Positions 17,577 through 41,400 of a stretch of 64,000 bases of DNA are shown one piece after another. Both the position numbers and the translations under genes were made by a program. Origin of the DNA: Chitinophagales bacterium (GTDB lineage: Bacteria > Bacteroidota > Bacteroidia > Chitinophagales > CAIODY01); NCBI GenBank assembly GCA_947452995.1, contig CANGEV010000004.1, positions 1-64,000 on the forward strand, in the 5' to 3' direction. Under the pieces are notes generated by a model. That model was not told the DNA's origin and searched no databases. It saw only the letters and a list, made by a program, of their open reading frames with translations. Position 1 is the stretch's first letter. Every line of letters begins with the position of its first letter.

Positions 17577-20500
17577 TTACTTTTCAATTACAACTTGTCC
17601 ATTACCTTTTAACAGCCCATTTTCGATGATACGATAGACATACGTACCAGCACTCAAATCACCCAATAGCACTTGAACTTTATTGCTTACTAAATCTTGT
17701 TGCAAGACAACTTGTCCCATAAGATTTAATAATTGGAACTTCGCAATAGATGATTGCTCACGTTGAACGGTAAGCACCCCATTACTTTCGACTGGTGAAG
17801 GATAAACGCGAACATCATTCGAATTAACTGTCTCCACACCTGTAGCAAAATCATTATCCAGAACAGTCACCTGCATCGTTGTTTGCGAACCAAGGATTGC
17901 ATTTTGAGCAGAATTTAAAGTGATTGTAAACACTTCTGGCGTTTCAAAGAGATTATCATCTACTATGTTAATTTGAATATTGTTCACTGTATTAAATGCA
18001 GGGATAATCAGCGGACTTGCAGTAATCACCACATAATCAGAACCCGCCAAACATGTACCTGCAGTCACAGTAAATGAAACAGAAACAGGGGATGCAGTAG
18101 GGTTGCTTACGTAAACAGGGGCATTCAATACCAAGGTCTGACCCTCTTTAACGGTATTCGCAGTACTAGCAAATTGGGCAACCGCTTGTAAACCACCATT
18201 ATCATTATCTGTGATTGTACCTGTAAAAGTGCTTGCAGCACCAATCGTCGCGCTCACAGCATTACTTAATACAATGGTGAAATTCTCCGTTCCTTCAACA
18301 ATGGCATCGTCGAAGATACTGAAGGTTACATTTTGTGGCGTAGTACTATTAGGAAGGAAAATAATTGTTTGTGAAACAGTCCCGGTAACATCAGAACCGA
18401 TAGTAGCAGTTCCACTAGTTAATGTTGCTGTTACACTCACAGTCGTCGCACTAGAATTTTGTATCATCACCGGTACAGTAACTGTTCCTGCGCTTTCAAT
18501 ATAAGTATTAGAGGTTGTGCCAAAATAAACTGTTGGTGCTAGGACATCATTATCAATAATAGAGACAGCATCCGTTTGAAAACTTCCCATTGTTGCTCCT
18601 ACTGGATTTACTAGAACAAACACAATACTTTCTGTTGACTCAACCAAAGCATCGTCAACAATGCTAACAGTTATGTATTTCACAGTATCACCCGGATAAA
18701 AAGTAACAGTTCCTAACGGAGCTGAAATTGAATAATCAGACATCATGGTAGCAGTTCCTGCAAGCGTATATGAAACAGTTACCGTATCACAGTGTACATT
18801 ACTTAAGAATACAGGAACTTGCAACATTCCACCAGCCTCTCCAATTGTTTGTGTCGGATTACTGCTAAATGAAACACTAGGCGTAGGATCATTTTGTACG
18901 ATGTCAATATAATAGATAGAATCCTGTCCAATCAACACATTCACTGGATTTGACATTGTAAGAACAATGCTTTCTAAAAACTCAGGTACACAGTCATCTA
19001 ATAATGAGAACTGAACATACTGCGTATCATTGGCAGAAGCAAACGTTAAGGTTTGAGGATTGGTCATGATAAAATCAGCTCCGTTAGTGGCTGTCGTATT
19101 CATCATATCCAGATTCACAGTAACAGTCATAGGAAATACTGGAGTTGACCCAGAAGCAATCACTGGTATAGTAAGTGCAGCATTCATTTCTGCATACATC
19201 ACATAAGTAGGTTGCTCAAAATTTACAGAAACAGTTGGTCCCACGTAAACATCATCATCCAAGATATCTACTTGAGTGTTTGTCAGCGATGAATTAATTT
19301 GAGTATAAGGCCCTGCAGCATATAACATCAATGCAAATGATTCTGTCCCTTCAAAAATCAAATCTTGAATAATCGGAATGGTTACAAATAGCTGCGTATC
19401 GGTTGCTCCGAAATTTAAAATCGCCCCAGGGAAGGTATAATCTAACCCCAAAGTGGTACTAATATCCATTGACATCACACTAACCGTACCTCCTAAACCA
19501 TAATCGTTGGTAAAATTAACAGGTATTTGGATGGCTCCACCACCTTCTGCAATGCTCCAATTAGCCGTATTGAATGAAAAGCTAGGAACTGGATTCATAT
19601 CATTAACGGTAATGTTTGTACTCGTAGTACTTAAACCAGCTACAGCTTGACAATTAGCCCAAGTTGCATCCAGCGTAAATGTCTGCGGGATTCCGCTCAT
19701 ATTTAATGTGCTATTGCTATAAATATCAAGTGTAATACTTGTCGAAGTTTGCCCAGGAGGAATAACAACAACGATAGAATTAGTGCCATTTGTATATCCA
19801 TTAAAATCCCATGTTAAACTACCCGGCTGGTAATTAGAAGCCGGAGTAACATTAACAGTAACATACATGGTATCGCAATGTGCCGCACTTAAATTAAGCG
19901 GAATAATTTGTCCTAATTGCCCTTCATTGTAGGTATATGTTGATGCACCAAAACTTACACTTGGTGGTGCGTCATTTGGTAAAATGTCTAAACTATAAAT
20001 AGAATCAATGCCAATGATCACACCTGGACTTGGGTTAGAAACTAAAAGTTGAATACTCTCTAGCAATTCACATACACACTCATCATAGATATCTAAACTA
20101 ACATATTGGGTATCCTGAGCATTCAAGAAAGTTAATGTAGTATTGGTGAAGCTATAATCAATACCTGCTGTTGCAGTGGTATTGGTGGCTATTAAACTAA
20201 CATCAGCCGTATAAGGACCCGCTGCACTTGCATTCAATACAACAGGTATCTGCAAAGTGATCGCTTGTTCCAAAATACTATTATTAACTGGCGCTAAAAA
20301 CTGAATTGAATTACTTGGTACTACATCATTATCTAAGATATCTATTCGCATGGTATCCTGTGCGACAGCGAGGATTTGGGCATTTTGAGGATTCGTTAAC
20401 TCAACATAAAGATCTTCTGTAGGCTCAATAATTAAATCATCAATAATCTGCAAAGTATCCGGATCGATCAAACCATTCCAATATGGCGGAATCACCACTG

Positions 20501-21314
20501 TTTGCGTCACAAAATTATAATCTGCGCCACTTGTTGCAGATCCACTTCCAACTTGTAATACAACATCTACTTTAGTTGTATCACTATTGGCAAAAATCAC
20601 ATGCATTGGAATATTCACTGTACCGCTGTTTTCATTAAAAACGGCATAAGTAGAATCAAAAAAGACAGTTGGTGGTATTGGGGTGCCGCAAGGAAATGCA
20701 ACGTGACTTCCTAACATAGTGAAGGTATTCATCGGATAAGCAGTCCACTCATACATTCCTTTCAACATCCAATTCTTTTCTCCATTATAGATATTTGGAT
20801 TACGAACTAAAGTTCTATTGACTGAAAAATTATTGGTGAGAGGTGTATTGATCTGCCAAGAAGAGCCTGGATTCGAACACATTTCTCCAAAAATATCGAG
20901 CGTATCCCCGTTAATGGTATTCAACAAATAAAGCGCATCATTGCCATTAAAATTCAAGCTTGCCCATGTTGTATCACGCACTGCAACAATGGCAGGGTCA
21001 ACACCTGATGCACCGCCATTATTAATAACATAGACATCTCCAGGACTTAAATTTACAGGAGGCAATAAAAAAGTAGATCCTCCTGCACAGTTGCCATTAC
21101 TAATTATACCAACCAAATATCCTGCTAAGTTGATCGGTGCAGGACTAGGATTATAAATTTCAATAACCTTACTTCCTCCATAACCAACTCCTGGCTCTAC
21201 ATATTCACTAAAGAATAAGTCCGTACAAGGCAAGCCGTATGTAGATTGTGCTCTTGCCTTTATTAGGAAAGTACTTAAAATTAGAAAAACGACAATAGTA
21301 GCTATTTTCTTCAT
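17577..21314 (-). CDS. Lamin-tail-domain plus multi Calx-beta repeat protein, T9SS type A sorting domain
   Basis: N-term LFFSEYVEPGVGYGGSKVIEIYNPSPAPINLAGYLVG; about eight repeats with xxSFxxxxxxxxEGxG...EGTExFxxxLxNP...ITDND; C-term VRVYPSPVESNGVLTVQ...GQVVIEK. Confidence 0.92.
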   Translation of the reverse strand: MKKIATIVVFLILSTFLIKARAQSTYGLPCTDLFFSEYVEPGVGYGGSKVIEIYNPSPAPINLAGYLVGIISNGNCAGGSTFLLPPVNLSPGDVYVINNGGASGVDPAIVAVRDTTWASLNFNGNDALYLLNTINGDTLDIFGEMCSNPGSSWQINTPLTNNFSVNRTLVRNPNIYNGEKNWMLKGMYEWTAYPMNTFTMLGSHVAFPCGTPIPPTVFFDSTYAVFNENSGTVNIPMHVIFANSDTTKVDVVLQVGSGSATSGADYNFVTQTVVIPPYWNGLIDPDTLQIIDDLIIEPTEDLYVELTNPQNAQILAVAQDTMRIDILDNDVVPSNSIQFLAPVNNSILEQAITLQIPVVLNASAAGPYTADVSLIATNTTATAGIDYSFTNTTLTFLNAQDTQYVSLDIYDECVCELLESIQLLVSNPSPGVIIGIDSIYSLDILPNDAPPSVSFGASTYTYNEGQLGQIIPLNLSAAHCDTMYVTVNVTPASNYQPGSLTWDFNGYTNGTNSIVVVIPPGQTSTSITLDIYSNSTLNMSGIPQTFTLDATWANCQAVAGLSTTSTNITVNDMNPVPSFSFNTANWSIAEGGGAIQIPVNFTNDYGLGGTVSVMSMDISTTLGLDYTFPGAILNFGATDTQLFVTIPIIQDLIFEGTESFALMLYAAGPYTQINSSLTNTQVDILDDDVYVGPTVSVNFEQPTYVMYAEMNAALTIPVIASGSTPVFPMTVTVNLDMMNTTATNGADFIMTNPQTLTFASANDTQYVQFSLLDDCVPEFLESIVLTMSNPVNVLIGQDSIYYIDIVQNDPTPSVSFSSNPTQTIGEAGGMLQVPVFLSNVHCDTVTVSYTLAGTATMMSDYSISAPLGTVTFYPGDTVKYITVSIVDDALVESTESIVFVLVNPVGATMGSFQTDAVSIIDNDVLAPTVYFGTTSNTYIESAGTVTVPVMIQNSSATTVSVTATLTSGTATIGSDVTGTVSQTIIFLPNSTTPQNVTFSIFDDAIVEGTENFTIVLSNAVSATIGAASTFTGTITDNDNGGLQAVAQFASTANTVKEGQTLVLNAPVYVSNPTASPVSVSFTVTAGTCLAGSDYVVITASPLIIPAFNTVNNIQINIVDDNLFETPEVFTITLNSAQNAILGSQTTMQVTVLDNDFATGVETVNSNDVRVYPSPVESNGVLTVQREQSSIAKFQLLNLMGQVVLQQDLVSNKVQVLLGDLSAGTYVYRIIENGLLKGNGQVVIEK

Positions 21315-21415: not shown

Positions 21416-24400
21416 TTAACGAACCAATGTAACGTCGCCCTTTAGATAAATTAACTTACCGCCACCGCATTCCGCAATGACATTATACATATAAGTGCCT
21501 AATTCTTGATCTACGCCGCGGAACTTACCATCCCATCCTTTACTGTTCTTATCGTTAGTAGCGAACATTAATTGCCCCCAACGATTATAAACTTCCAAGC
21601 GCACCAAACGATAGAAATCATCTGGATTTAAAACATGGAAGGTTTTATCAGCTTCTACATCAGAATTTGGAGCGAATGCATTAGGAATACGTAAGGCATC
21701 GCACATACGTATTGTCACATGCATCGTATCTTTATCCATACATCCGAAAGATGCATTGTAATAGGTCAACACATAATCTTGATCAACAGACGGAGTTGTA
21801 TTAGGATCCATCAATGTTGGATTATCCAATGTAGCGGCAGGCGACCATAAGTACGCATTACCACCGATACTACCACTTCCATCAAGGTGAGCTGCATTAC
21901 CTATGAAGATCGTTTGATCCGCACCGGCATCTGCAATTGGAAGCGCATGTCCTGTAATATGATGCGAAGTACTATCGGTACAACCATTTGCATCTGTTAC
22001 GAACACAAACACATCAGCTCCACCCGTAACGAAAATAGAATCATTTATCGAACCCGTACTCCACAAGTAACTAACGTAGTTTGGTGTTACTGCTAAACCT
22101 ACTGTTTGATCCAAGCACAAATCATTTGGTCCTACAATAACCGGATCTGGCAATGGATTAACATCTACATTTTGTGTAACAGGCAAACTACTACATCCGT
22201 CTTGCGTTACCACAAGCGTTGTTGGATAATGAGCCTGAGTAGATGTATTATTTACATAACGAACATTGTGCGGACCTGCTGTCGTTGCCTTATTTGGATT
22301 ACCATTATTAAAACTCCAATTATAAGTCACCTGACCACTGCTACTAGGATTTGTTGTTCCTGTATAGCTAAAGTTTACTACCTGTCCTGAACAGATTGGG
22401 TTTGGCGTGTAGCTAAACGTTGCTGTTGGAATAGGATATACCGTTATCAATACAGAATCTGTATTAGAAGTACATCCGTTTTCAGTAATTGTCAAGTACG
22501 CAACCTCTGTCTTAATGCCAGATGTTGTCATATAAGTCACACTATGTGGCCCTTTCGTGTTAGCACTTAACGGGCTACCGTTAGGGAACGCAAATCCAAA
22601 AGTACAAGCAGCCGCATTTTGATAAGAACTACCTGCACTTGTAATTGTAACAGGCACACCAGCACATGTCAAAGCAGGATTAGAACTAATCTTTGCTACT
22701 GGATAAGGATGAATTGTAACATTCACAGAAGCACTATCATAACAACCATCTTGATCTACCAATAAGGTAACTTTTTTAACCAATGAAATCTTTGAAGGAA
22801 CAGTATTCCAAGTTACATCATACGAAGGCGTATTACTAACCATGTTTGCAATCCCACCGTTCCAACCCCAAGTGAATACAGGAATTGTTGGTGTAGGGTT
22901 TGGCGCAACACCCGTATTAATTGTCCCATTGAACGTCACCGTTAAAGGTGAGCCAGTACATACTGCATTCGGTGTTGTACTCATGCTTGCAACCGGATTC
23001 GGATAAATCACAACTGAGTCCATCGTAACAACCGAAGGACATAAGAATGTAGGGCCAACACTCGTTTGTAATTTAATTACATATTTACCAGGTGTGTTCA
23101 TGACTAAACTTAAATTCTTAGTCGTACCTACCACGTTATTATTTTTATCCATCCACTTATATTTCAAACCAGGATAAGCTGCAGAAGTCCCTGTATATGT
23201 CAGTTTCAAGCTATCACCTACGCAATGAGGGCTATTTCTAGCGAAATTACTCGTCAAGGTAGGAATAACAACTACACTTGCAGAATCAGGGAAAGAAGTA
23301 CATCCAAAATCATTTACTACTAAAGTAGGTGTAAATACGCCTCCTGAATTCCAGAACACTTGGTATGGGCCTTGCCCCGTACCACTTAATACTTGTCCAC
23401 CATCCCAATTCCAATTATACGTACCCGCTGCAGTCGCTGTACCCGTATAGGTAACCGTACTTGGGCTTCCCTGACAAACAGGTGAAGTCATAATGAAAGA
23501 TGCCGTTGGTGTAAGATTTTGCAAAATCGTAATTGTATCAGTAGCAGCACAACCTGTTCCACTTTGTGTAGCGGTCACTATAACTGAATCCGGACCAAAA
23601 ACCGTAACACTTGGAGAAGAACAGTTACTACAACCGGAAAGAGCACCACCATTTATAGTAGACCATGTCCAACCTGTTGTAGGGATATTATTTCCTGTTG
23701 CCCATAATGGAACTACGGATCCAGGGCACACACTTGTATCTTGTCGAATTTGTAAATTAATTGTACCAATTACATGAACCACAACGGTATCAAATAATGG
23801 GCAATAGGATCCCATTAATTGACAAACATAGGTCGTAGTGGTTGCAGGATTTACATTGATTGTTGCATTGGTGTTGTTTGGAATAACACTCGCTGGAATT
23901 GAACTCCAGAAGAAATTATAATTCCCAACATTAATTTGGATAGGGCATCCTGTAAAACGTGCATTTGGCAACAAATTACTTGTACCAAATGTATTTGGCG
24001 TAGCTGCATTTTGCGTACAACCCGCAATACCTGCAATATTACCTGCCCAAACTACGCAGTTACCGGCTTGCGCTGTCTTTGCAACTACATCACTCGCAGA
24101 TGAAATCGCAGAACCAAAACATATTTCAACTAACAAATCACTACTACCATCCCAATCATAGGCATTTGCGAAGGCAAAAGTGTTCCAACCAGCAGTCGTA
24201 TTATAATTTACAGGTCCATACACTGTTGACATACCGCCAATAAAATTACTTGGCATCACCAAATTCTTATTGATGCAACTTACTTTAATCGTCATATTAT
24301 AATGTGGCAAATAACTATTCTTGGTAGTTATATTAAATGCCATAGACGAAATTTTATACGGTGTTCCAGCTGCGATACCGAAAGCCGCTTGTAAACTAGC

Positions 24401-27400
24401 AGCCGTGTAACGCATCAACGTACGACCATTTGAATAATTCGCATTAAACGGTGTAATCGTTGTTGTCACGTTATTACCTGTACCATTTGTAACTGTTGTT
24501 GGAGCAGAAGCGCAATTATTCATTGTACTTAATCCACAAGGAACCGCATTCACAGGTACAGGACCTGTTGCGGTAGCTGTTAAGCTAACCCCTTGGTTAT
24601 TTCCACAGAACGTAGTATCAGCACCAGCAGAAATAGTATTCTTCTGCATTTGATATACAGTAAATGATTTAATTGTCTGACATCCACCATCATCACCTGT
24701 TAAGGTATATGTTGTTGTTACAGTAGGAGTCACAAAAATTGAATCATTATGAGAAATAAAGCCCGGAGGATTAGAGGTCCAAGTCCAAGTTGTAGTTGGT
24801 GTTGCTTTTCCACTACAACCTTTAATGAATACATCAGGACGTTCTGTTATGGTTCCTGGCAAGAAGCCATTACCCGTTTGACCATAGTTAGGATCACAAC
24901 CATTATAGCTATCTGAGTAAGCATAAGCACACAAGTTAGCTGTTGCAGGTAATCCGGCTGCTGTCGATAAAGTTGCATTGGCAGTTTTATCTACACGATC
25001 ATCAGATGTCCAACAACTACTTCCTGCATCATAACAAGTTTGAACCAAAAGGTTAGAAACTCCATCCCAAGCGTATGGCGTTTGAAGCACAAAACTATTC
25101 ATACCTGCAGAAGTATTGTATGCAGTGGTCGTATAAACTTGCGTCAAAGGTGTAGTCAAATCCAAGGCAACTGCGCCCGTATAAATATCAGTATAAGGAA
25201 CACATGCCATTGAAATGGTAAAGCCTGCAAATTGACCATTTGCAGAGCAGGCAGGCACTGTACTTGCCTTATTAACAACGTTCCACGCTACTTCCGAAAT
25301 TGGTCCACCTTGGAAGCCTAATGCCTGCAATTCAGATGCTAAAATCAACATCTGGCACTTAGACTCAGTGTAGAATCCACGGAATGGCGTTGGCAAATTA
25401 GCCGTTGTACCACTCGCATTACCTGTTGCATAAACAGAGCCTCCTGCACATGATATAGGAGACGGCCCACACACTGATGGTGAAGTCATAATAGAAATGG
25501 TATCAATCACTAGATTACCGAAAGCATCTCGCAAACAAATGGTATCATTACCCATAACAAAGGCCGTAGGATATTGTCCCTTCACCAAAATAGGAATGTC
25601 GACATTCGACCAACAAGTGGTATCTCCCGGAGGCGGGATTGCGGTAAATCGAACATTGTGCGGTCCATTGCAATTGTATTTCAACTTAATAGGTCCAGGA
25701 CCAACCAAGTTACCACTCATCAAGGTATAACAAGAATCAAGCGTATAGAAATAATTGAAATTTGGCTTAACAGTACCGGTATAATTTATAATAATAGAAT
25801 CCGTTGGTCCGCACACAGTATCTTGTGATACAAACATTGGTAACGGAGGCATTGGCTGATTAATGTGAATGGTCTTATAAACAGTATCGGAAACACAACT
25901 AATGTTGGACTGTACTATCAATTGAATGGTATAAGTACCCATTTGATAGTAAATGTGTTGAGGATTTTGTGTTGTAGAATCAATGTTAGGGTTATTTGGC
26001 GTTGCGTTTGGATCTCCAAAATGCCATTCCCAATGATTGATGAAGGTCCCTGCTGTAAGTGAATACGACGAATCAATAAATTGAACAATCGAACCCGCAC
26101 AATAATTAGACGGATAGAAGAAGTTGGCTACAGGTTTAGGTTGAGCAGTCAACAATGTATAGATGGTATCCGGACAACCGAAACCAGGATAAGGGAATAC
26201 GGCCAATGCATAAGTAGTTGGCTGTGTTGGTGCAGGATTCAATGTTAAGTTAACATTGGTACCAAGTATTGTTGTACACGTTGCATCATACCAAACATAA
26301 CTTTGATAACCTGGAGGTCCATTCAAACCTGCAGTAGAAGAGCCAGGACAATAGCCTTGCACAATTGCGGAAATAGAACAACCTACTCCAACGTCAATAT
26401 AACCATACCCCCAGTGTCCACTGAAAGAACAGTCAAATGTTGTAAATTCAAGTGCAACAGTACGTCCACTTAAACCATTCAAACCAATATTTTGCTGTGA
26501 CCACGACTTATAATGTACAGTAGGGTCTATGGTTGAGGTGCCCCATCCAGGCATGCTGGAACTCGCAGTATAAGCAAAGGTTGCACATGCAATGGAGCTA
26601 CCAGGACCTAACAAACTATCATAAATTTTCACAGTCATCCCTGGTTGATCTGTTGCACCATGACTAGCATCTTGCAAAACAGCAGCCCAGTTATAAACTA
26701 TGTTATAGTTATTATTTCCTGGAGGTATACGTAAATAATAAATTACGCGATCCGCTTGAGCCCCCGTATTATCATCCCCTACACGACAAGAAAAATTCCC
26801 GCCACCAAATACTGTAGGGCAAACAACAGGGAAAAGACCGTATCTATCAAGGTTCACCGGTGATGAAGCAGGTGATGCCATTGTTGCATTTGGAAAACCT
26901 GTTGGGGTAATTTCAAAACGAGTACCAGTACCAGCTACAGAAGGAACAACGGCAGCTCCACCAAATGTCGGTGCTGTACCTGGATAAGTTCCTGTATAGC
27001 ATTTCCAATTCGTAAAATTACCATATTCCCAGTCCATATTTTTAGGACAACAAACTTCAGGAACTATTTTTATGCAATAAGTAGGACTTGCACATCCAGA
27101 AGGTGCCGTTTGATAGACACAATACATACCTGCATCATTTGGTCCTATTCCATTTACTGTGTCTGCATTTTGAGTACTATTAACACCATTAGTGGTATTT
27201 GCAGTCCAATGCACTGTATAGCCCGCAGTTGGTGTGGCCGAAAAAATAAAATCACTACTATAACAAGGCTTTAAGGTATCATTTATCACACCATTTAAAA
27301 TCATATGCGGAACGCCCCCGACCATAGTTACAGGCAAGCCGTTAAATGTAATAACGGTAGGATAAGCAGCAGGACCAGCTCCAACCGTGATTATCATCAA

Positions 27401-27742
27401 TGCTGTATCACACATCACAGGTACTCCATTATCACATACCTTATAGGCTAATGTGTCAATACCACAAAACCCATTGTTAGGAGTATACGTGATTGTACCA
27501 TTATTAATGTTTACTGCAGTCACTAATCCATGCTTAGGTGAAATAATTATCACCGTATTCAAGGTAAGTGTTTGACCAGCATCAGGGTCAATGTCGTTCA
27601 GGACAACATTGGTAGTTACACCTGTATTGGCAGCCGTTGTCGCTAAATCATTGGCTGCTACCGGTGGATTGTTCGCATAAGCACTTTGCAATGCAAAAAA
27701 TGACATTGCAACGAAAATGGCTATTTTAAATATGCTTTTCAT
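21416..27742 (-). CDS. Giant PKD/Ig-repeat surface protein with gliding-motility/CHU_C-type C-terminal domain (T9SS type B cargo)
   Basis: 2108 aa; signal peptide; cadherin-like N-term NPPVAANDLATTAANTGVTTNVVLNDIDPD; multiple PKD modules; C-term APNSDVEADKTFHV...YNRWGQLMFATND...WDGKFRGVDQELGTYMY. Confidence 0.93.
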   Translation of the reverse strand: MKSIFKIAIFVAMSFFALQSAYANNPPVAANDLATTAANTGVTTNVVLNDIDPDAGQTLTLNTVIIISPKHGLVTAVNINNGTITYTPNNGFCGIDTLAYKVCDNGVPVMCDTALMIITVGAGPAAYPTVITFNGLPVTMVGGVPHMILNGVINDTLKPCYSSDFIFSATPTAGYTVHWTANTTNGVNSTQNADTVNGIGPNDAGMYCVYQTAPSGCASPTYCIKIVPEVCCPKNMDWEYGNFTNWKCYTGTYPGTAPTFGGAAVVPSVAGTGTRFEITPTGFPNATMASPASSPVNLDRYGLFPVVCPTVFGGGNFSCRVGDDNTGAQADRVIYYLRIPPGNNNYNIVYNWAAVLQDASHGATDQPGMTVKIYDSLLGPGSSIACATFAYTASSSMPGWGTSTIDPTVHYKSWSQQNIGLNGLSGRTVALEFTTFDCSFSGHWGYGYIDVGVGCSISAIVQGYCPGSSTAGLNGPPGYQSYVWYDATCTTILGTNVNLTLNPAPTQPTTYALAVFPYPGFGCPDTIYTLLTAQPKPVANFFYPSNYCAGSIVQFIDSSYSLTAGTFINHWEWHFGDPNATPNNPNIDSTTQNPQHIYYQMGTYTIQLIVQSNISCVSDTVYKTIHINQPMPPLPMFVSQDTVCGPTDSIIINYTGTVKPNFNYFYTLDSCYTLMSGNLVGPGPIKLKYNCNGPHNVRFTAIPPPGDTTCWSNVDIPILVKGQYPTAFVMGNDTICLRDAFGNLVIDTISIMTSPSVCGPSPISCAGGSVYATGNASGTTANLPTPFRGFYTESKCQMLILASELQALGFQGGPISEVAWNVVNKASTVPACSANGQFAGFTISMACVPYTDIYTGAVALDLTTPLTQVYTTTAYNTSAGMNSFVLQTPYAWDGVSNLLVQTCYDAGSSCWTSDDRVDKTANATLSTAAGLPATANLCAYAYSDSYNGCDPNYGQTGNGFLPGTITERPDVFIKGCSGKATPTTTWTWTSNPPGFISHNDSIFVTPTVTTTYTLTGDDGGCQTIKSFTVYQMQKNTISAGADTTFCGNNQGVSLTATATGPVPVNAVPCGLSTMNNCASAPTTVTNGTGNNVTTTITPFNANYSNGRTLMRYTAASLQAAFGIAAGTPYKISSMAFNITTKNSYLPHYNMTIKVSCINKNLVMPSNFIGGMSTVYGPVNYNTTAGWNTFAFANAYDWDGSSDLLVEICFGSAISSASDVVAKTAQAGNCVVWAGNIAGIAGCTQNAATPNTFGTSNLLPNARFTGCPIQINVGNYNFFWSSIPASVIPNNTNATINVNPATTTTYVCQLMGSYCPLFDTVVVHVIGTINLQIRQDTSVCPGSVVPLWATGNNIPTTGWTWSTINGGALSGCSNCSSPSVTVFGPDSVIVTATQSGTGCAATDTITILQNLTPTASFIMTSPVCQGSPSTVTYTGTATAAGTYNWNWDGGQVLSGTGQGPYQVFWNSGGVFTPTLVVNDFGCTSFPDSASVVVIPTLTSNFARNSPHCVGDSLKLTYTGTSAAYPGLKYKWMDKNNNVVGTTKNLSLVMNTPGKYVIKLQTSVGPTFLCPSVVTMDSVVIYPNPVASMSTTPNAVCTGSPLTVTFNGTINTGVAPNPTPTIPVFTWGWNGGIANMVSNTPSYDVTWNTVPSKISLVKKVTLLVDQDGCYDSASVNVTIHPYPVAKISSNPALTCAGVPVTITSAGSSYQNAAACTFGFAFPNGSPLSANTKGPHSVTYMTTSGIKTEVAYLTITENGCTSNTDSVLITVYPIPTATFSYTPNPICSGQVVNFSYTGTTNPSSSGQVTYNWSFNNGNPNKATTAGPHNVRYVNNTSTQAHYPTTLVVTQDGCSSLPVTQNVDVNPLPDPVIVGPNDLCLDQTVGLAVTPNYVSYLWSTGSINDSIFVTGGADVFVFVTDANGCTDSTSHHITGHALPIADAGADQTIFIGNAAHLDGSGSIGGNAYLWSPAATLDNPTLMDPNTTPSVDQDYVLTYYNASFGCMDKDTMHVTIRMCDALRIPNAFAPNSDVEADKTFHVLNPDDFYRLVRLEVYNRWGQLMFATNDKNSKGWDGKFRGVDQELGTYMYNVIAECGGGKLIYLKGDVTLVR

Positions 27743-27768: not shown

Positions 27769-30700
27769 TTAACGTAGTAAGGTTACATGACCTTCTTTTC
27801 TCACTATTTGACCACCTTCACATTCTGCTTCTAGGTAGAATGTGTAAGTGCCTACTTCTTGGTCTATACCATTAAACTTACCATCCCATCCAGCATCCAT
27901 TCTGTTCTTGCTAGAGTACACTTTTTGCCCCCAACGGTTGAATACTTCGAAACGCTTAAGATCTACTAATTGTGACCCGTTTGCAATGAAGAATCGTTCG
28001 TTTTTACCATCTCCATTTGGAGAGAAGGCTGTTGGAATAAACACATTAGAACAATGGGTAACTATTACTAGCATCGTATCATAACCAATACAACCGTTTT
28101 GGTCGGTTGCCTCAATAATATAGAATGTAGATACTGCTGGAGTTGCTTGTGTGTTTAAAATTACAGGATTTGAAACTGTTGCAGCAGGACTCCATTGGTA
28201 TAAATAATTAGGGGTAACTAATCCACCTATATTTGCTGTATTTCCTAGAACAATCATTGTATCAGGACCTGCATCAGGTACAGGTGGTACTAATACTGTA
28301 ACAATTGCAGTTCCAACACCTGTACAGCCATTCGCCAAGGTTCCTACAACAGAATAAGAGGTTGTAGTTGGTGGCCAAACTTTAATTGCTGGCAAATTAG
28401 AATTGATGCCATTTAACCAATTGTAACTATCAGCACCACTCACCCATAGGTAAGCAGGACGACCCGGGCAAATACTTGTATCACTATGAACAATCACAGT
28501 TGGGACAGGTAAAATAGTAATTGGACTTGTAACAGGAGTAGAAACACAACCATTTTGAGAAACGGTTAGTGTAACATTGTAGGTACCAGGATTATTCCAA
28601 ATTACACCGATCGGACCAGCACCAGAACCGTATACCTGGCTTGTCATACTACTGAATGTCCATGCGTAATTTGCACCAGGAACAACACCACCACCAATGT
28701 GAACGAAACGTGCTGTATCAAATGCACATGTAGGAGAAGTTACTGTGAAGTTCGCTGTTGGGATTGGAACAACTTGTAATGTTTGTGTATTTGTACTGGA
28801 GGTACATCCATTCTCTGTAACACTTAATGAAACTGTTGCATTGAAAATAGAATTAGAATTATTAATCCATGTAGCACCATGAGGTCCGATACCTGATAAT
28901 TGAACAGGATTCACATTACCTGTGGTATTCCAAACAAAACCTGCTGTATTCGTTGCATTACCTGTATAAGTGATTGCAACTTGATTGCCAGAGCAAACAC
29001 TTGCAGGTAAACTAAAGTTATTAGTTGGTGTCAGGGTTACATTAACAGGAACGATAGTAGGTGTCGATGTGCAACCATTAGAAGTAACTGTTAAACTTAC
29101 ATTTTTAATACCAGCGGTAGACCAGTTGACAGTATATGGTCCAGCACCTGGGCCGCCAGACGGAACACCACCATCCCAAGCCCAAATATAACTAGCACCA
29201 GCACCCATATTACCTGTATAAGTAATAGGGGTAGCTTGGCCTGTACAAGATTTTATTGGAGCTACGAACGTTGAAGTTGGTGTCAAATTAACTACTAATG
29301 GAACAGTGGTCGTACTTGTACAATTAGCATTTGTAACTGTTAAGGTTAAATTCTTTGTTCCTGCGCTATTCCAAAGTGCTTGATAAGGGCCAGCTCCACT
29401 TCCTGAAGCAACAACAGCGCCTTGTAAATTCCAATTATAATTATACGAGGCATTTGCGGTGCCTGTATATGATACGATTGCATTTGAACCAGTACATACC
29501 GGATTCGGAATTACAGTAAACCCAGACGTTGGTGTTTGATCAACGATGACAGGAATTGTAATTGAATCTAAACAGCCAGCTGCGTTTACAAGGAGTTTAA
29601 CATTCTTCGTACCTGCTGTTGCCCAAGTTATAGTATAAGGTCCAAAACCAGAACCGCTCACAACAGTTCCTCCATTCCAATTCCAAGTTGCCGTACTACC
29701 CGCAGGATTAACACCAGTAAATGTTACAGTAGCATTAGCACCAGAACAAACAGGATTTGGATTGACTGTAAAGTTCGCAGTAGGTACTGGTTTAACGGTA
29801 ATTGTCACATTACTTGTCACAGAACATCCTGAATATCCTGTTGCTGTAACATGATAAGTCGTAGTAACCGAAGGTGATACCGTAGGATTCATTTGTAAAG
29901 ACGTAAATCCAGCAGGTGTTGAGGTCCAGTTATAGTTGAAAGGACCAGTTCCTGTTACAGTTGGATTCAAAGTATACACAGATCCTTTACAAATCGATGC
30001 ATTTAAACCAGCATTAATTGAAGTTGTATTGTCAATATAAATAGCTTTTGTAGTAGTGGTTTGACATCCGTTACCATCATCCACTGTTACTGTATAAGTT
30101 GTATTTGTAGTAGGGCTTGCGACAGGATTATTAACAGTCGCTGAAGATAAGGTAGCGGTAGGCGTCCAAACATACGATGCGGTATTCAAATTTGAATTAC
30201 AAGTTATAAGTGTTATGGAAGGTCGATTGAATGAAGTACTAAAAATAGTACCTGTTGTTAAGTTACAACCAACACTACCCACCCCACTCTGCAGGGCATA
30301 AACGCACGAATTAAATGCAGTTGCTGTTTGAGCAACCAAATCATCCATATTCGCAGATGAGTTATCAAAACAGAATTCAAATACTAGGTTGCTTACACCA
30401 TCCCAATTATATGGAGTTTGGTACATAAAGGTATTAGTACCATTAACAGTATTATAAATTGCAGTAGAATATACCAAACTCAATCCGCCAATGAAAGAGG
30501 CAGAAGTGTATTGTGAAGTAGAAGCACAGCCCATTGAAATCTTCAAATTTCTAAAAGGATTCGTACTTCCTTTACTTGTAACATTAAAGCTAATACCAGA
30601 AATCTGACCAGCACTAAAACCTGCATTTACTAATTCAGATGCACGAACAATCATTTGCATTCGACCATCTGAATAGGATTGAGCAAACGGACCAGGATAG

Positions 30701-32403
30701 GTGGAAATATTCAATCCGCCTGTTCCTATAATGTTATTGTTTGAAATACCGTTACATGCAATATTTGTTGCCCCACACGTAGTAGGTATTACAGAAACAG
30801 AAAGTTGGCTATTAGCATTCGGGCAAATTGTGTCGTCAGAGGCCACAATATGTGCATCTGGTGCAACGCCAACTATATTCACTATTACACTATCTGTGAA
30901 TCTACATCCCATTACAGGATTTGTAATTGTGTAGTAGTAGGTGGTTGTTGCAGTTGGAGTTACTATAGCAAATTGCTGGGTAGTATCAACAATTCCATTG
31001 TTTGGCCAATTTAAACCATTATTGGTTGTCCATGCAATTGAATAGTTAGGATTTGGTGGCGAAAGTGGATTTAACGTCGTAGTTGTATTTAAGCAAATAT
31101 TTTGATCAACACCGGCATTTGGATAAACGGGGGGTTGTGCCACATTTAAGATGGTGAATAAGGCTGTATCGGAAACGCAGGATATACTTGATGTTACTAT
31201 TAACTGCACTTGGAAAAAACCTGTATCAGAGAAGATGTGAATAGGATTCTGTTGAGTGCTATAATTGTTCGCACCAGTGTTTGGATCGCCAAAATCCCAA
31301 TGCCAAGAATTGATATAGGCAAATGGGAAGTTTGTGTAAGATGAATCAGTGAATTGAACAGGACTGTTCGCACATATTTGCTGATTGGTCGTAAAGTAAG
31401 CAGTTGGTAATGGAGCAACCTTTAGCGTATCAATCAAAGTATCATTACAAGATGTACCCCCTGGAGGTGTTACGACGCAAGCGTATGGAGTATTTGAGGC
31501 AGGAGCAGTAATAACAACAGAATCAAAATTACCGATATTTGTCCAACCTGGTAATTGATACCATGAATAGTTGGAGAAGCCTGGAGGGCCATACAAGGTA
31601 GCAGAGCTTTGTCCTGGGCAATACCCTGTACTGATACGGAAAGGATTACATCCACCAGGAATATCAACATATGAATACCCAAAGTGACCGCCAAAAGAAC
31701 AGTCCCCTGTAGCGAATTCCAAAATAACCAGGTGTGTATTAAGTGCAGCTAAATTTACAGATACAGGAATCCAGTTGGAACAGAAAACCTGGCTATTTGA
31801 TGGCGAAACAAACCAGAAAGGAGGCATGTTCGTGCTGCTCGTAGGCGAAGGAATATTATAAGAAGGACAAGGTACTACAACCGGTGTTGTATAAGGTGCG
31901 GTAATCGGACCTGCATCGTAAACTGTAAACACAACTCGTGGTTGATCTGTTGCTGCGTGACCACCGGAGTTTAATACGGCAGCGTAACGATAGATTAACG
32001 TAGAGTTATTCGAATTAACAGGAAATTGAATACGCACTTTTTCCGATTCTGAACCAGTATTGGGGTTTCCTAATTTTAAGGAATGCAAATTCACAATGGG
32101 AGGTTGCACTGGACAAACACACGAAAATCCACAAAGTGCATCATTTCCCCATGTGGCGTCCGTTACTTCAATCCGTCCTGGTATTTGAAAATTAACTCCC
32201 TGAAATGAACATGCGTTAATCGGGCAACATCCTAAGCCTGTACAACCGTTATTAATAAACGATTGCCATTGTGTCATGTCGCCTAATTCAAACCCAATAT
32301 TTGGCGGACACCCTTGGGAAAAGGCTTTTGGAGCTTCTAATAACAAGAGCAACAACAACAATTTGTAGCTCAATTTTAAAATATTTTTCATTTGCAAGTT
32401 CAT
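27769..32403 (-). CDS. Large PKD/Ig-repeat surface protein with CHU_C-type C-terminal domain; paralogue of its neighbours
   Basis: 1544 aa; N-term GCPPNIGFELGDMTQWQSF; about six ~80-aa PKD-like repeats; C-term FSPNGDGKNERFFI...FNRWGQKVYSSKN...WDGKFNGIDQEVGTYTF. Confidence 0.93.
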   Translation of the reverse strand: MNLQMKNILKLSYKLLLLLLLLEAPKAFSQGCPPNIGFELGDMTQWQSFINNGCTGLGCCPINACSFQGVNFQIPGRIEVTDATWGNDALCGFSCVCPVQPPIVNLHSLKLGNPNTGSESEKVRIQFPVNSNNSTLIYRYAAVLNSGGHAATDQPRVVFTVYDAGPITAPYTTPVVVPCPSYNIPSPTSSTNMPPFWFVSPSNSQVFCSNWIPVSVNLAALNTHLVILEFATGDCSFGGHFGYSYVDIPGGCNPFRISTGYCPGQSSATLYGPPGFSNYSWYQLPGWTNIGNFDSVVITAPASNTPYACVVTPPGGTSCNDTLIDTLKVAPLPTAYFTTNQQICANSPVQFTDSSYTNFPFAYINSWHWDFGDPNTGANNYSTQQNPIHIFSDTGFFQVQLIVTSSISCVSDTALFTILNVAQPPVYPNAGVDQNICLNTTTTLNPLSPPNPNYSIAWTTNNGLNWPNNGIVDTTQQFAIVTPTATTTYYYTITNPVMGCRFTDSVIVNIVGVAPDAHIVASDDTICPNANSQLSVSVIPTTCGATNIACNGISNNNIIGTGGLNISTYPGPFAQSYSDGRMQMIVRASELVNAGFSAGQISGISFNVTSKGSTNPFRNLKISMGCASTSQYTSASFIGGLSLVYSTAIYNTVNGTNTFMYQTPYNWDGVSNLVFEFCFDNSSANMDDLVAQTATAFNSCVYALQSGVGSVGCNLTTGTIFSTSFNRPSITLITCNSNLNTASYVWTPTATLSSATVNNPVASPTTNTTYTVTVDDGNGCQTTTTKAIYIDNTTSINAGLNASICKGSVYTLNPTVTGTGPFNYNWTSTPAGFTSLQMNPTVSPSVTTTYHVTATGYSGCSVTSNVTITVKPVPTANFTVNPNPVCSGANATVTFTGVNPAGSTATWNWNGGTVVSGSGFGPYTITWATAGTKNVKLLVNAAGCLDSITIPVIVDQTPTSGFTVIPNPVCTGSNAIVSYTGTANASYNYNWNLQGAVVASGSGAGPYQALWNSAGTKNLTLTVTNANCTSTTTVPLVVNLTPTSTFVAPIKSCTGQATPITYTGNMGAGASYIWAWDGGVPSGGPGAGPYTVNWSTAGIKNVSLTVTSNGCTSTPTIVPVNVTLTPTNNFSLPASVCSGNQVAITYTGNATNTAGFVWNTTGNVNPVQLSGIGPHGATWINNSNSIFNATVSLSVTENGCTSSTNTQTLQVVPIPTANFTVTSPTCAFDTARFVHIGGGVVPGANYAWTFSSMTSQVYGSGAGPIGVIWNNPGTYNVTLTVSQNGCVSTPVTSPITILPVPTVIVHSDTSICPGRPAYLWVSGADSYNWLNGINSNLPAIKVWPPTTTSYSVVGTLANGCTGVGTAIVTVLVPPVPDAGPDTMIVLGNTANIGGLVTPNYLYQWSPAATVSNPVILNTQATPAVSTFYIIEATDQNGCIGYDTMLVIVTHCSNVFIPTAFSPNGDGKNERFFIANGSQLVDLKRFEVFNRWGQKVYSSKNRMDAGWDGKFNGIDQEVGTYTFYLEAECEGGQIVRKEGHVTLLR

Positions 32404-32858: not shown

Positions 32859-35417
32859 TTATTTTATCAATGTAACATTACCTGTTTTAGTTTTTACTTG
32901 CCCTCCTTTATCTACCACCTGCGCTTTAAAAACATACACTCCTAAATCTTGCAGTTGGCCTTTAAAAGTACCATCCCACCCTTTCGCATGAATATCTGTG
33001 GTAGAATAAACTAATTCGCCCCAACGATTGTATACCTCGAAGTAATCTAAGGATACAAAGTTGCGATTCAACAAGAAGAAATAATCATTTTTACCATCCC
33101 CATTCGGCGAGAACGCACTTGGAATAATTAATTCAGGACATTCTATTGGACTCACAAAAACGGAATCCTTTGCACGACAACCTATTGTATTCGCTGTATT
33201 GACGTAAACCATTACCGGTTGATTAACAGCCACAACCGCTGTCGAGCAAGTTATACACGATGCTAGAGAACCTGCAGTAGGATCCATTGCCCACCAGAAT
33301 TGCTTAATATCTGCAGACAAAGAATTGAACGCTATAATTTCTGCTTGGTTCATACAAGGTTTAATTGTGTCAGGCAAATCTAATGAATATGGCTCCCCTA
33401 TTCTTACTACAATATTTTTAGTTAATACGCACCCACCGTAGGTAATTCCGGTAACAGTATAGGTGGTTGTTTGCATGGCGAAGCAAGTAACTTGTGGTCC
33501 CGTAGAGGAGCTCAAATCATTTGAAGGGTTCCAACTAAAACTAAATCCACCACTTGGCGCAGGTCCATCCATAGAGGCCATTAAGTTACAGCTCGATCCT
33601 TTACACATTACGGTATCAAGACTTGCAAACATATGATTGCGGTCATCGACATTAACCAGGAAAGTCTGTGAGGAAGAGCATCCGTTGTCATTTATTGTTA
33701 GACTATACGGCGTAGTTACAAGCGGATTAACAGTAGGATTTGAAACGGAAGTGGAACTAATATGTGTATTAGGCGTCCAGGTATACGTTGCGGAAGCAGG
33801 GATTGGATCCAAGCCTAAATTGGTAATACTCAGAAAATCATTTTCTCCGACACAAACGGTATCATCCCCATTTATTTGAAAGTTCGGACGCACCCCTAAA
33901 ACGGTTACTTTTACGGAGTCAGTTAAATTACATCCTGAAGGATCTGTAAGAATTAAATGATAAACAGTGGTAACTGTAGGTGATGCTTTTGGATTAGAGA
34001 TAGAATCATTACTTAACCCTGTCGAAGGTACCCAATGATATTGATAGGGTCCGAAAGCTGCATTGGCCGTTGCTTGCAATTGTGTGCTGTCGTATTTACA
34101 GATACTCACATTAGGGCCTGCATTCAAATTGATTGGAGGAGGAGGAATGATCGTTATTGAAAGACTCGTTGTATCAGATACGCATGAGATGTCAGATTCT
34201 ACAATTAGCGACACTGTATATGTGCCAGGATTATAGAAAACGTGTGTCGGATTTTGCGCAGTAGCTGTGTTGTTACCTCCGGAAGCGGGGTCACCAAAAT
34301 CCCAATGCCATTGTACAATGATCGACCCAGCGATATGAGTTTGACTGGAATCGAAGAAGTTGATTAATCCACCTGCACAAGCTGTAGTTTGGAAATTAAA
34401 TAATGCAGTTGGGCGGGGTTGAACATGAATAGTGTCGTATAATGTATCTGCGCAGGCGTTCAAACCAGGCGGAATTACCACCAAGGAATAAATCACGTTA
34501 GAGTCAGGTGACATCACCAATAATGAATCTGCAGAACCGCTAGCAATAAATGGCGATCCAGTACCTGCAGTATCCCAGATGTAAGTGTTAAAGCCAGGAG
34601 GGCCAAAAAGCGTAGCTGCCGTTGATCCAGGGCAATAGCCTGTTACAACAGAGAATGCGCCGCAATTTAAATCTACATAAGCATACCCAAAATGACCGCC
34701 TAAAGTACAGTCGGCGGTTATAAATTCAATGGTAACCAAATGCCCATTTAAAGCACCTAAATTAACTGAAACAGGAATCCAGCGCGAACAATAAACAGGG
34801 TTAATGGATTGATTCGTTATAGATGCAAACCAACCTGGAGGCAGACTCGAAGACGAAGACGGCGTTTGGAATAAAATGGAAGGGCATTGAACTTTTACTG
34901 CCGCTGCATAGGGTGCGTTTACAGGGCCATTATCCCATACATTGAATTCAAGAAAAGGCTGATCTAAGGTCGTGTGATTAGGATTTTCCATTACAGCTGC
35001 ATAACGATAAATCAAAGATGCATTACTTCCATTAACAGGAAATGTTGTTCGCATCATTTCAGCTTCAGAGCCAAAATTATCATTCCCTAAACGGACAGAT
35101 TTTGTACCATAACCAATATAAGGGCATGCGACAGGCAATAAGCTATACGGATCTTGGGTTCCGTTGAAAGGAACCATGTAGGTTAAGCCTGTACCATTGG
35201 GAGTGATTGTGTGTCGACCAGCAACTTGACCCGGAGTCGTTATTGTTGGTGTACCTGTAAGATTTGATCCTGTAAAGCATTGCCAACTATTTGTATTTCC
35301 TAGCTCAAAACCAATATTAGGCAAACACTGGGCATAAACATCCTCCTGAATTATAAGGCAAAAAAGCCCTATAATAAGCAGTTTGACGCTTAATAGATGA
35401 AGGAGTTTTTGTATCAT
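32859..35417 (-). CDS. PKD-containing surface protein with CHU_C-type C-terminal domain; shortest of three tandem paralogues
   Basis: 852 aa; N-term CLPNIGFELGNTNSWQCFTGSN; PKD HWDFGDPASGG; C-term FSPNGDGKNDYFFL...YNRWGELVYSTTD...WDGTFKG. Confidence 0.93.
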   Translation of the reverse strand: MIQKLLHLLSVKLLIIGLFCLIIQEDVYAQCLPNIGFELGNTNSWQCFTGSNLTGTPTITTPGQVAGRHTITPNGTGLTYMVPFNGTQDPYSLLPVACPYIGYGTKSVRLGNDNFGSEAEMMRTTFPVNGSNASLIYRYAAVMENPNHTTLDQPFLEFNVWDNGPVNAPYAAAVKVQCPSILFQTPSSSSSLPPGWFASITNQSINPVYCSRWIPVSVNLGALNGHLVTIEFITADCTLGGHFGYAYVDLNCGAFSVVTGYCPGSTAATLFGPPGFNTYIWDTAGTGSPFIASGSADSLLVMSPDSNVIYSLVVIPPGLNACADTLYDTIHVQPRPTALFNFQTTACAGGLINFFDSSQTHIAGSIIVQWHWDFGDPASGGNNTATAQNPTHVFYNPGTYTVSLIVESDISCVSDTTSLSITIIPPPPINLNAGPNVSICKYDSTQLQATANAAFGPYQYHWVPSTGLSNDSISNPKASPTVTTVYHLILTDPSGCNLTDSVKVTVLGVRPNFQINGDDTVCVGENDFLSITNLGLDPIPASATYTWTPNTHISSTSVSNPTVNPLVTTPYSLTINDNGCSSSQTFLVNVDDRNHMFASLDTVMCKGSSCNLMASMDGPAPSGGFSFSWNPSNDLSSSTGPQVTCFAMQTTTYTVTGITYGGCVLTKNIVVRIGEPYSLDLPDTIKPCMNQAEIIAFNSLSADIKQFWWAMDPTAGSLASCITCSTAVVAVNQPVMVYVNTANTIGCRAKDSVFVSPIECPELIIPSAFSPNGDGKNDYFFLLNRNFVSLDYFEVYNRWGELVYSTTDIHAKGWDGTFKGQLQDLGVYVFKAQVVDKGGQVKTKTGNVTLIK

Positions 35418-37442: not shown

Positions 37443-38450
37443 CTAGAACTTAGGACAGAACATCTTTTTTCCACGGCTATATACCGTTGGTTTAGATTTA
37501 GGACATTTAATAACATATTGCAAGGTCAATTCAGGACCGCCTTTATAGTTAGAAATAACATGTAAAGGAGATACATTCACATCATACGACAAGCCAACTG
37601 CAAGATTAAAAATATCATAACGGAAGTAGAAATTAAGTGCGTCAGCACCTGGGCGAGTAAAACGCATTCCTGTACCGAAATATACAGCAGTTTCATAAGA
37701 CAAATTATCGTCAATAAGTACCTTTCCAAGTGCAGAAACATTTAACTCACGCGCTCCTTTCTGAGTACTATACTGTAGCATAGGAATTACCGTGAACATA
37801 TCTGCAAATTGAATAAAGGCTGTGCCATGGTATTGAAAACGTGTTCCTAACAAATCATTATAATGCGCAAATGATTGATTTGGGCGTGTAAGATGCGTAA
37901 GGCTAAATCCAGTCTGATACGACAACCAATTATACGGTTGATGATAAAACAGGACCCCTGTACCAAAATCCGTGAAGCTCACATTATTCGTCAAGGTTAC
38001 TACTTCGAATGGATTTTCTAATTTAAGATTAGAAAGATTTAATTTTCTCTGCCAGGATCCGAATTGTAATCCGGCAGCAATAGTCATTGGATGCTTCTTG
38101 TCTAAAATATGGCAGTAGCCCATGCTAAATCCGAAAGCACTTGTTCCAAATTGTGCATCCCCACCAATATCATTAAAGAAGTTAACTCCAAGCCCAACGA
38201 AATTACCTTTCAATTGACCTTGCAAAATTTTAGCATCCATTGCTCCCGACATCGTGTTAAAGCCATTGCTTCCCATAATGGAGGACCATTGATTTCTATA
38301 GCCTGCATTTATGCGCATACAACCATTGAACTGCCCTACCAAGGCAGGATTCAACGTTTGAGGCGACATATAATATTGTGTAAAATGAAAATCCTGGGCT
38401 GTTGCATTCAGTCCAATCATCCAACAAAGAATTACTATAATTTTTTTCAT
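37443..38450 (-). CDS. PorP/SprF family type IX secretion system membrane protein
   Basis: QDFHFTQYYMSPQTLNPALVGQFNGCMRINAGYRNQWSSI; FYFRYDIFNLAVGLSYDVNVSPL, characteristic of the family. Confidence 0.93.
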   Translation of the reverse strand: MKKIIVILCWMIGLNATAQDFHFTQYYMSPQTLNPALVGQFNGCMRINAGYRNQWSSIMGSNGFNTMSGAMDAKILQGQLKGNFVGLGVNFFNDIGGDAQFGTSAFGFSMGYCHILDKKHPMTIAAGLQFGSWQRKLNLSNLKLENPFEVVTLTNNVSFTDFGTGVLFYHQPYNWLSYQTGFSLTHLTRPNQSFAHYNDLLGTRFQYHGTAFIQFADMFTVIPMLQYSTQKGARELNVSALGKVLIDDNLSYETAVYFGTGMRFTRPGADALNFYFRYDIFNLAVGLSYDVNVSPLHVISNYKGGPELTLQYVIKCPKSKPTVYSRGKKMFCPKF

Positions 38451-38463
38451 CGTTACCTTTTAT

Positions 38464-41400
38464 TTATCGAATTAAGGTTAGATTACCATTAAGCACCTTA
38501 TATTCTCCATCACCTAAATCCTGATAGTTGATTATATAAAGATAAACTCCGGAATTTTGTTCTTTTCCTCTATGATAACCATCCCAACCTTGCGTATAGT
38601 CTTCTGTATGAAACACTTCTTCCCCCCAACGGTTGAAGATGCGCATACTGAATTGATTGATTGGTTGATTAGCGGTGATGCGAAACACGTCGTTCAAGCC
38701 ATTTCCATCCGGTGTAAACCCGTTAGGGACGGTGATTACAGCATTTTGGTAAATCATAGTGATATAAACTGTATCAGGCCCAGGGCAATTACTTTCATCC
38801 TTCACAGTATAATAGATATTATTCAAAGCGCTTGAAATAACAATATTACCGGTATCTTGATTAAGGGCAACATTCGGCATCCAAGTAATCGTTCCAGTAC
38901 CTATCGCCTTCAAGGTAATATCACTACCTGCAACTAAGGTGCTATTAGGAGTAAGAATTCGCGGAGCAGGTTTTACGATGATGTTTTTTGTCATTGTATT
39001 ACTCTTTCCATACTTATTAGAATCTACTAATGTGATTGTAAATGTTCCTGGATAACTATAACAAATATGTGTAGGATTTATCTGTGTGGAGAATAAGGTA
39101 TCAGAACCGGTGAATGTCCATAAGCTAGTAAAAGGGGCTTCTGTACTGATATTCGTAATATCGATACATGTTTCGGCACAGGTGCTTGCAGGCATATAGA
39201 AATCGGCCGTTGGTGGAAGGCATGAAAGTACCGTGATATATTTGGTCATGCTATGCGAACCATATGCATTTTGAACGGTAAGCTTGATACTATACGTACC
39301 TGGAGTCCCATATTGTACGGTCGGGCTAGCCAGATTTGAAGTTCCAGGACTTGCTCCTGAAAGAGCCCAGTTATAAACTAATGGTCCGTGTAAACTAGAA
39401 TCTGTCAGAACTATTGGATTATTCATACAAACCGTATCTGCAGGCATTCCAAAATTTGCAACAGGTAATGAACAGTCTGTAATGGTAATTTGATTTGTTA
39501 CTGGGGCACTTGCTCCGCATACATTCCAAGCGATTAATTGAAGGGTGTAGGTACCAGCGTTTGTATATATATGTGTAGGTGTTTGCAAAGTACTAGTGTC
39601 TGTTCCTGAACCAGCCTGCCCGAATGTCCATTGCCAGGCGTTTGGCGAACCGGTTGAATTATCAAATAGGGTCAGTGGCGTATTATTGCAATATGGAGGA
39701 TTAAGACTAAACTGCGCGGTAGGAATTGTTTTTACAGTAATTGTTTTTGTTGCGATGTTAGAGCCACAAAGATTACTCACAATTAATTGTACGATTTGAT
39801 TTCCTGGCGTATTGAATTGTATCGCCCCTGGATTTTGTGTTGTTGAAGTCGATGGAGTTGCATTCGCAAAAGACCAAGCCCAAGCTGTCGGTGTATTTGA
39901 ACTACCATCCGTAATATTTAAGGTATTGCCTGCGCAAACACTCGTTGCACTAGCATTAATAGCTGCTAATGGAGCTCCCGGCATGATTACTAAGGTCTTG
40001 GTATATGCTCCGCTATTTCCTAGTGAATTACCTGCAACCAGTGAAATTGTAACCGTTGCAGCTGTAGTTAATGAAGAATTGAAGGTTATAATACCTGGAT
40101 TTTGCAAATTCGAACTTGGAATTGAAACTGTTATTCCTCCAGTATTAGTGCTATTGAAATTCCAACTCCACGTGGTTGGACCATTGATACTTAAATCAGT
40201 TACGGTAATGGTGGAACCAGAACAAATGGTATCGTTTGGACTGAGGCTAAAGGAAGCAACTGGTGTAAGACAGAATTGCGTGGTCACGTTTACCGGCGCA
40301 GAAGGAGCACTTGTGCAGCCTCCTATAGTATTAGTAACAGAATAATTGCCTGTTTGCGGTGCGTTTACACTGGCGAGGACAGGGTTTTGTTGATTGGATG
40401 TATAGGAATTAGGACCTGTCCAAGACCAATTACCAGACGGCGATCCGTTAGGGTTGGCTGTCAGATTACAAGATTGACCTGTACATACAGGGGCGTTACT
40501 AGAAGCAGTTGGTGTTAAAGGTATTGGGTTGACATCAATCAAAATACAACTAGAAGCACTATTACAACCAACAGTTTGGTATTGATAAACACAATATCTA
40601 CCCGAATCGGCTTGTGTTACAGCAGCCGCAGCAATAGAGATTGAATTTCCGGTTCCGATTAACCCGCTTGGACCATTCCAAACAAGTGTCATACCGGCTA
40701 AACCAGTAGCGCTGATATTGATACCTGTTCCTAGGCACACAGGATTGATAGCTGCTGTTACTCCACTTGGCGCCGCAGGTGATGTCCCTACTTGAACGAA
40801 TACCCAAGCTGTGTCACATAAAGTCGGAGAACCATTATCACAAATTTGATATTGGAATGAATCTTGTCCACAATAGTTGGCTGTAGAAGTATACGTCAAA
40901 CCACCATTAGAACCTATACCAGTTATCGTACCATGTGTAGGCTGTGTAACGATTGTAGCATTTAAGGAAATTATATCTGACAGATCTGGATCATAGTCAT
41001 TCACCATCACATTGGTTGAAGAAGCTACGCCAGAACCTGCTACCATGTTATCATTTACGGCAACAGGCTGATTATTAAGAACTGAATAAAAAAGGTTTAT
41101 GGAATCTACCGCAAAAGAAGGATCTGTACCAATAGCGTCATTATCGTTATCCCATAAAAAGCCAATTCGAAAGTTAGTTAAGTTATTATAAAGGGCTGGT
41201 AAAGCTAAGGAGTAACGAGTCCATTGTCCTTGCGGAGCGCAGGCAAGTGGTGTTTTTGCCAATGTTACGCTATTCCATGAAGTTCCATCAAATAATTGCA
41301 GCGTGGCATTATCATCTGTTCCTTCACCATTTAGAATATAGTTGAATGACAATACGATGCTTGATTTACCTGCACAATTGATTATCGGCGATTGTGCACG

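Follow-up and report, generated by a model that had tools for sequence, protein, structure and literature searches.

What is the segment that repeatedly interrupts the immunoglobulin (Ig)-like stalk of two neighboring surface proteins in this Chitinophagales genome, and what might it do there? The window analyzed here is a 64,000-nt stretch of DNA, within which no RNA genes were found. Its minus strand encodes P1 (2108 aa, 21416-27742), P2 (1544 aa, 27769-32403) and, adjoining P2, the 852-aa paralogue P4 (32859-35417). The P1 and P2 stalks are composed of Ig_7 (PF19081) and PKD_4 (PF18911)-type domains. Both proteins carry a CHU_C, type B sorting domain of the type IX secretion system (T9SS) on the same strand, at 21425-21691 in P1 (PF13585 E = 3.9e-10, 40.2 bits; TIGR04131 E = 3.7e-10, 39.8 bits) and at 27772-28038 in P2 (PF13585 E = 4.8e-16, 59.1 bits; TIGR04131 E = 1.2e-11, 44.6 bits). 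All four scores exceed the respective cut-offs of 27 and 35 bits and mark P1 and P2 as predicted T9SS type B cargo. Such cargo is reported to be kept on the cell surface by PorP-like partners, as SprB is by SprF (PMC9143113). A PorP/SprF-family outer-membrane protein encoded at 37443-38450 (minus strand; PF11751 E = 1.1e-27) is a candidate anchor.

Three copies of a module of ~200 residues, with a cysteine at both ends, are encoded on the minus strand within P1 and P2. Module A extends from Cys758 to Cys976 of P1 (24815-25471), module B from Cys1069 to Cys1266 of P1 (23945-24538), in the next Ig-like domain after the host of A, and module C from Cys543 to Cys735 of P2 (30199-30777). The first-pass annotation had described A as a nested module at an insertion site shared with the P2 copy, and alignment, structure prediction and the relatives of the module all agree with this. 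Its limits correspond exactly to residues 758-976, with the ‘PSVCG’ and ‘FIKGC’ cysteines as first and last residues, and its layout matches that of C, with the flanks alignable between P1 232-1074 and P2 32-836. The insert had been written as starting at ‘GFYTE’, but it begins ~35 residues earlier (CGPSPISCAGG...).

The copies had been linked by short motifs. Pairwise alignment, a check set beforehand, reveals similarity far beyond these. With E-values computed for an assumed database of 1e8 letters, BLASTP matches A to C at E = 4e-26 over 207 aa, B to C at 3e-26 to 1e-25, and A to B at 4e-11 over 170 aa (3e-12 over 277 aa). Shuffling gives z-scores of 38 (A-C), 32 (B-C) and 18 (A-B), and about 48 columns, including the end cysteines of the insert, are invariant among the three. 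A profile search of the source genome, in which A itself contributed to the query profile, recovers A at E = 1.1e-89. In a tree of 109 copies, A, B and C each have closer neighbors in other proteins or genomes than among themselves, and because they are placed in separate branches, with moderate support, they are apparently not recent duplicates. Module C shares 86% amino-acid identity with its nearest relative; the low dN (0.10) relative to a saturated dS shows purifying selection, and thus that the module is maintained.

In all three cases, the module is inserted after strand B and before strand C of an Ig-like host domain. The beginning of this domain (‘..DDTICPN..L..’) precedes each module, and its remainder (‘Y.WTP....TTTYT.T.DD..GC’) follows. 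For A, the N-terminal half of the host (strands A-B, with Cys736) is encoded at 25472-25579 and the C-terminal half (strands C to G, with Cys1021) at 24644-24814. The corresponding halves are at 24539-24640 and 23762-23944 for B, and at 30778-30870 (with Cys527) and 30025-30198 (with Cys780) for C, all on the minus strand. A natural empty site for A and C occurs in P4, which aligns to P2 15-537 (42% identity) and P2 741-870 (34%, E = 8e-11) with just 9 P4 residues between the two stretches, and without the module. P4 therefore has the same Ig-like domain free of an insert (33642-33896, minus strand), and its cysteine pair is at residues 522 and 580, versus 527 and 780 in P2, where the pair spans the module. 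The empty site for B, recognized by alignment, is the uninterrupted Ig-like domain of P2 that follows module C (29794-30024, minus strand). As in split-Ig architectures, the stalk domain is discontinuous and completed on both sides of the insert, and an uninterrupted paralogous domain provides the control. The nested architecture is well supported.

AlphaFold2 models of A and C, each with its host, have pLDDT values of 85 and 88 and pTM values of 0.77 and 0.76, respectively. In both, Ig strands are followed by a many-stranded, β-rich insert with one short helix close to its start, and then by the remaining Ig strands. In the C model, we assign the predicted strands E19-23 and E34-40 to Ig strands A and B, and E245-249, E270-277 and E283-292 to C, F and G. 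The fold and strand order of the module are predictions, and the confidence values of the models suggest that the insert forms one compact domain. Foldseek searches of the PDB returned no confident neighbor for model A (best E = 0.023) or for model C, for which the best match is a cyanophage capsid protein (9jwb_Z, E = 8e-4, TM-score 0.46). The other matches are to weakly similar jelly-roll and carbohydrate-binding folds. In these PDB searches no link to a known lectin fold was found, as CBM32, CBM51 and a chitosan-binding module matched at E ~ 0.09 or worse with low TM-scores. Fold matches in BFVD, for which the query was the whole Ig-plus-module model, have TM-scores below 0.5. A profile search of the PDB gave a match to a Cry-toxin C-terminal domain (E = 0.018), a weak hint of a β-sandwich.

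Sequence libraries do not name the module. Neither Pfam nor NCBIfam gave a relevant match, or a match to any named CBM or lectin family profile, for the three copies searched to E = 10 or for 42 members searched to 0.1. The module likewise has no match among PHROG profiles and no relevant one among PDB sequences, and our literature search found no paper describing it in its nested form. Three possible relationships were considered and rejected. The motif ‘GW.tftfstPf’ prompted comparison with DUF4082 (PF13313), for which hhalign, using only four DUF4082 sequences, reported a probability of 0.4% over 15 columns. A PDB match to IcmE/DotG (E = 2e-8) is due to repeated short ‘ASELkaAG’ segments that are each insignificant alone. 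A phage origin was set aside given no relative on any viral contig and no PHROG match; phage matches to P2 fall outside the module. One of the phage records, the 642-kb uncultured LR756502.1, encodes at 518431-519387 a region resembling the P2 Ig stalk and CHU_C C-terminus (32% identity, E = 2e-11), and host-type T9SS cargo would be odd in such a record.

The module is a Bacteroidota-wide domain family that is not peculiar to the P1/P2 locus and also occurs un-nested. The source genome has eight copies. Copies were found in 130 of 199 genomes of the order (up to 13 per genome), in 173 of 295 genomes of the class (about 60%) and in 12 of 101 genomes of one more distant family, and profile matches at E < 1e-40 occur in dozens of genomes. 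Across the phylum, the first and weak three-sequence profile detected it in at least 30 of 297 genomes, a lower bound.

In many distant genomes, the module immediately follows a signal peptide or is flanked by other domains. Its partners in Pfam searches include fn3 and Calx-beta and, for un-nested copies, an M12B-type metallopeptidase, an M28 peptidase and N-glycanase/LamG proteins. Nesting in the B-C loop of an Ig-like domain characterizes about 71 of the 109 copies examined, a sample that favors the best-scoring copies; 57 of these were called automatically on both halves of the host, 9 on the second half only, and the rest by eye. A second loop is also used. In L014, and apparently in L012, another copy of the module breaks Ig_7 near its last strand, with the Pfam match reaching no further than profile position 67 of 84; the closing Ig_7 strand of L014 comes after the module. 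The tree of 109 copies requires ~ 10 changes between the nested and un-nested states. Because well-supported branches force at least two of these, nesting was gained or lost more than once; the tree gives no direction.

Two further arrangements were noted among relatives. The proteins L026, L031-L036, L038 and L039 mostly combine a ‘CGEWDY’ motif, the module and a LamG domain, and in L033 there is also a match to the C-terminal part of PNGase-F. Two halves of an N-glycanase-like protein may flank the module and LamG. In L008, encoded on contig C2 of the source genome, a segment unlike the module (‘GGTMFNLGLANYVVNSTNSGF...’) breaks up an Ig_7 domain close to the final strand, at about frame residue 210, which suggests that other domain types use the same Ig slot.

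Cysteines distinguish nested from other copies. Column 68 is Cys in 92% of nested copies versus 3% of the others, and the C-terminal Cys is present in 65% versus 3% when scored by column, or in 61 of 71 versus 11 of 38 when scored by neighborhood. A Cys within 30 residues upstream of the module occurs in 70 of 71 nested copies and 9 of 38 others, while both groups frequently have a core pair at columns 121 and 157. Two linker cysteines, the column 68 Cys and the end Cys occur together in 60 of 70 nested copies, and three of the 70 lack the linker, column 68 and end cysteines altogether. Losses tend to be paired. In L005, L051, L068 and L069, the second linker Cys has disappeared along with the end Cys while column 68 remains, and on the tree these four cases map to three or more separate places. 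In L082, the first linker Cys is gone together with column 68, and the end Cys remains. The co-occurrence is significant in a Fisher test that ignores relatedness (p = 1.5e-10). This joint presence and absence points to two disulfides in nested copies, one between the first linker Cys and column 68 and another, between the second linker Cys and the end Cys, that would staple entry to exit. In module C, the predicted pairs are 543-626 and 550-735. The scheme leaves unexplained two sister copies (L049 and L060) that have a single linker Cys.

The arrangement recalls RTX adhesins, in which ligand-binding domains are recognized by their budding from split Ig-like domains that hold both ends of the insert on one side and turn the binding face outward (PMC12077191, PMC10865825). 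Here too, the stalk of a giant, repetitive surface protein has an Ig-like domain split by a folded insert, which may project sideways from the stalk. Secretion differs: no RTX family match was found in P1 or P2 in Pfam and NCBIfam searches, and the CHU_C signal indicates T9SS rather than type I export with RTX repeats. The split also follows two strands, at the B-C loop, instead of the single strand that precedes the insert in FrhA, and the extra predicted disulfides and a module lacking sequence matches to solved structures are further differences. The names Ig_7 (‘Ig-like domain CHU_C associated’) and PKD_4 denote the host, which the insert interrupts, and not the insert itself. In kind, this is a variant of known split-Ig presentation, with another secretion system and an unnamed module. 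New here are how widespread the unnamed domain is, the natural control without an insert in the adjacent gene, the recurrence of nesting in two different loops, and a cysteine staple whose members covary.

We consider it probable that the module is the ligand-binding part of a surface adhesin exported by T9SS and that a split Ig domain holds it out to the side of the stalk. What the sequences themselves show is homology of the copies, nesting, the empty site, the T9SS signal, wide distribution and the co-occurrence of cysteines; binding, projection and the connectivity of the disulfides are what we infer from them. In the proposed arrangement, the Ig domain would serve as a split holder that contributes two strands ahead of the module and the others behind it, its own conserved Cys pair spanning the insert. 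As the ends of the module would leave the stalk side by side, its body would project sideways. One predicted disulfide would join the entry and exit segments and the other would tie the entry linker to a module strand, and these two extra disulfides would hold the module rigidly against pulling force. Ligand binding appears to be its most likely job because of the split-Ig geometry and because un-nested relatives are attached to secreted enzymes, the usual place for binding modules; the target may be a glycan or other surface polymer. With two copies in P1 and one in its neighbor P2, the adhesin could be multivalent. CBM32, CBM51 and other jelly-roll β-sandwiches are comparable in their attachment to secreted enzymes and adhesins and in the β-sandwich-like fold that is predicted for the module, although the module has no significant sequence or fold match to CBM32 or CBM51.

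An unlikely but serious alternative is that the module is structural, either a lateral spacer or stiffener or an oligomerization patch that packs stalks as in cell-surface filaments. The grappling-hook protein GhpA of Aureispira (PDB 9flp and others) is, like P2, a large Bacteroidota surface protein, and it forms a large assembled hook. The Ig/PKD stalk of P2 resembles GhpA (phmmer E = 1.2e-19), with the best stretch outside the module. A structural role would also fit the capsid protein among the weak Foldseek matches and the conservation of no catalytic or obvious ligand residues beyond structural-looking WDG and SN turns. However, GhpA itself lacks the module (no profile match at E ≤ 10), and copies on unrelated secreted peptidases, on N-glycanase-like proteins or alone after a signal peptide are a poor fit to a role in stalk packing only. 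That the module is a surface-displayed enzyme, for example a hydrolase or esterase, seems very improbable. Weak Foldseek similarity to a polyvinyl-alcohol esterase and a carbohydrate esterase entry (9kr1, 7toj) hints at this, but at E-values of 0.009-0.04, and columns conserved at > 60% include no Ser/His/Asp set or paired acids. Moreover, a CBM domain from such an esterase, deposited as an entry of its own (7tok), also matched, which points to binding domains rather than catalysis. Chance similarity between low-complexity segments of Ser/Thr/Asn-rich repeat proteins, with no real domain, has some appeal given the abundance of T, S, N and G in host and module and spurious profile matches such as that to IcmE/DotG, but it is refuted by the shuffle z-scores of 18-38, the E < 1e-40 matches in dozens of genomes, the confident folds and the clean empty site.

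Returning to the ligand-binding reading, a broader proposal would be that members of an unnamed, Bacteroidota-wide adhesive family have repeatedly become nested in split Ig domains of T9SS surface proteins, in at least two loops, and gained a disulfide staple on nesting, making this a type IX counterpart of calcium-dependent RTX split-domain presentation; we regard this as about as likely as not. If true, another secretion system and another phylum would follow the ‘split domain’ rule of RTX adhesins, by which the ligand-binding part is recognized as whatever is inserted into an Ig domain of the stalk. For most Bacteroidota surface adhesins the binding parts are unknown, and the module is a concrete candidate with exact boundaries.

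Other genes of the window also encode surface proteins. Another PKD/CHU_C protein is encoded at 38464-41766 (minus strand), and the PorP/SprF gene directly follows it, so the two are likely a cargo-anchor pair. Beside the adhesin genes, 17577-21314 (minus strand) encodes a protein of 1245 aa that combines a lamin-tail domain with seven Calx-beta stretches and a T9SS signal of type A. Finally, P1, P2 and P4 have in common an N-terminal domain of ~220 aa (‘CxPNIGFELG....W...’; 26363-27049, 31624-32310 and 34662-35327, minus strand) with ~33-42% identity over the aligned stretches. It has no Pfam match in the three paralogues and may be another unnamed surface domain.
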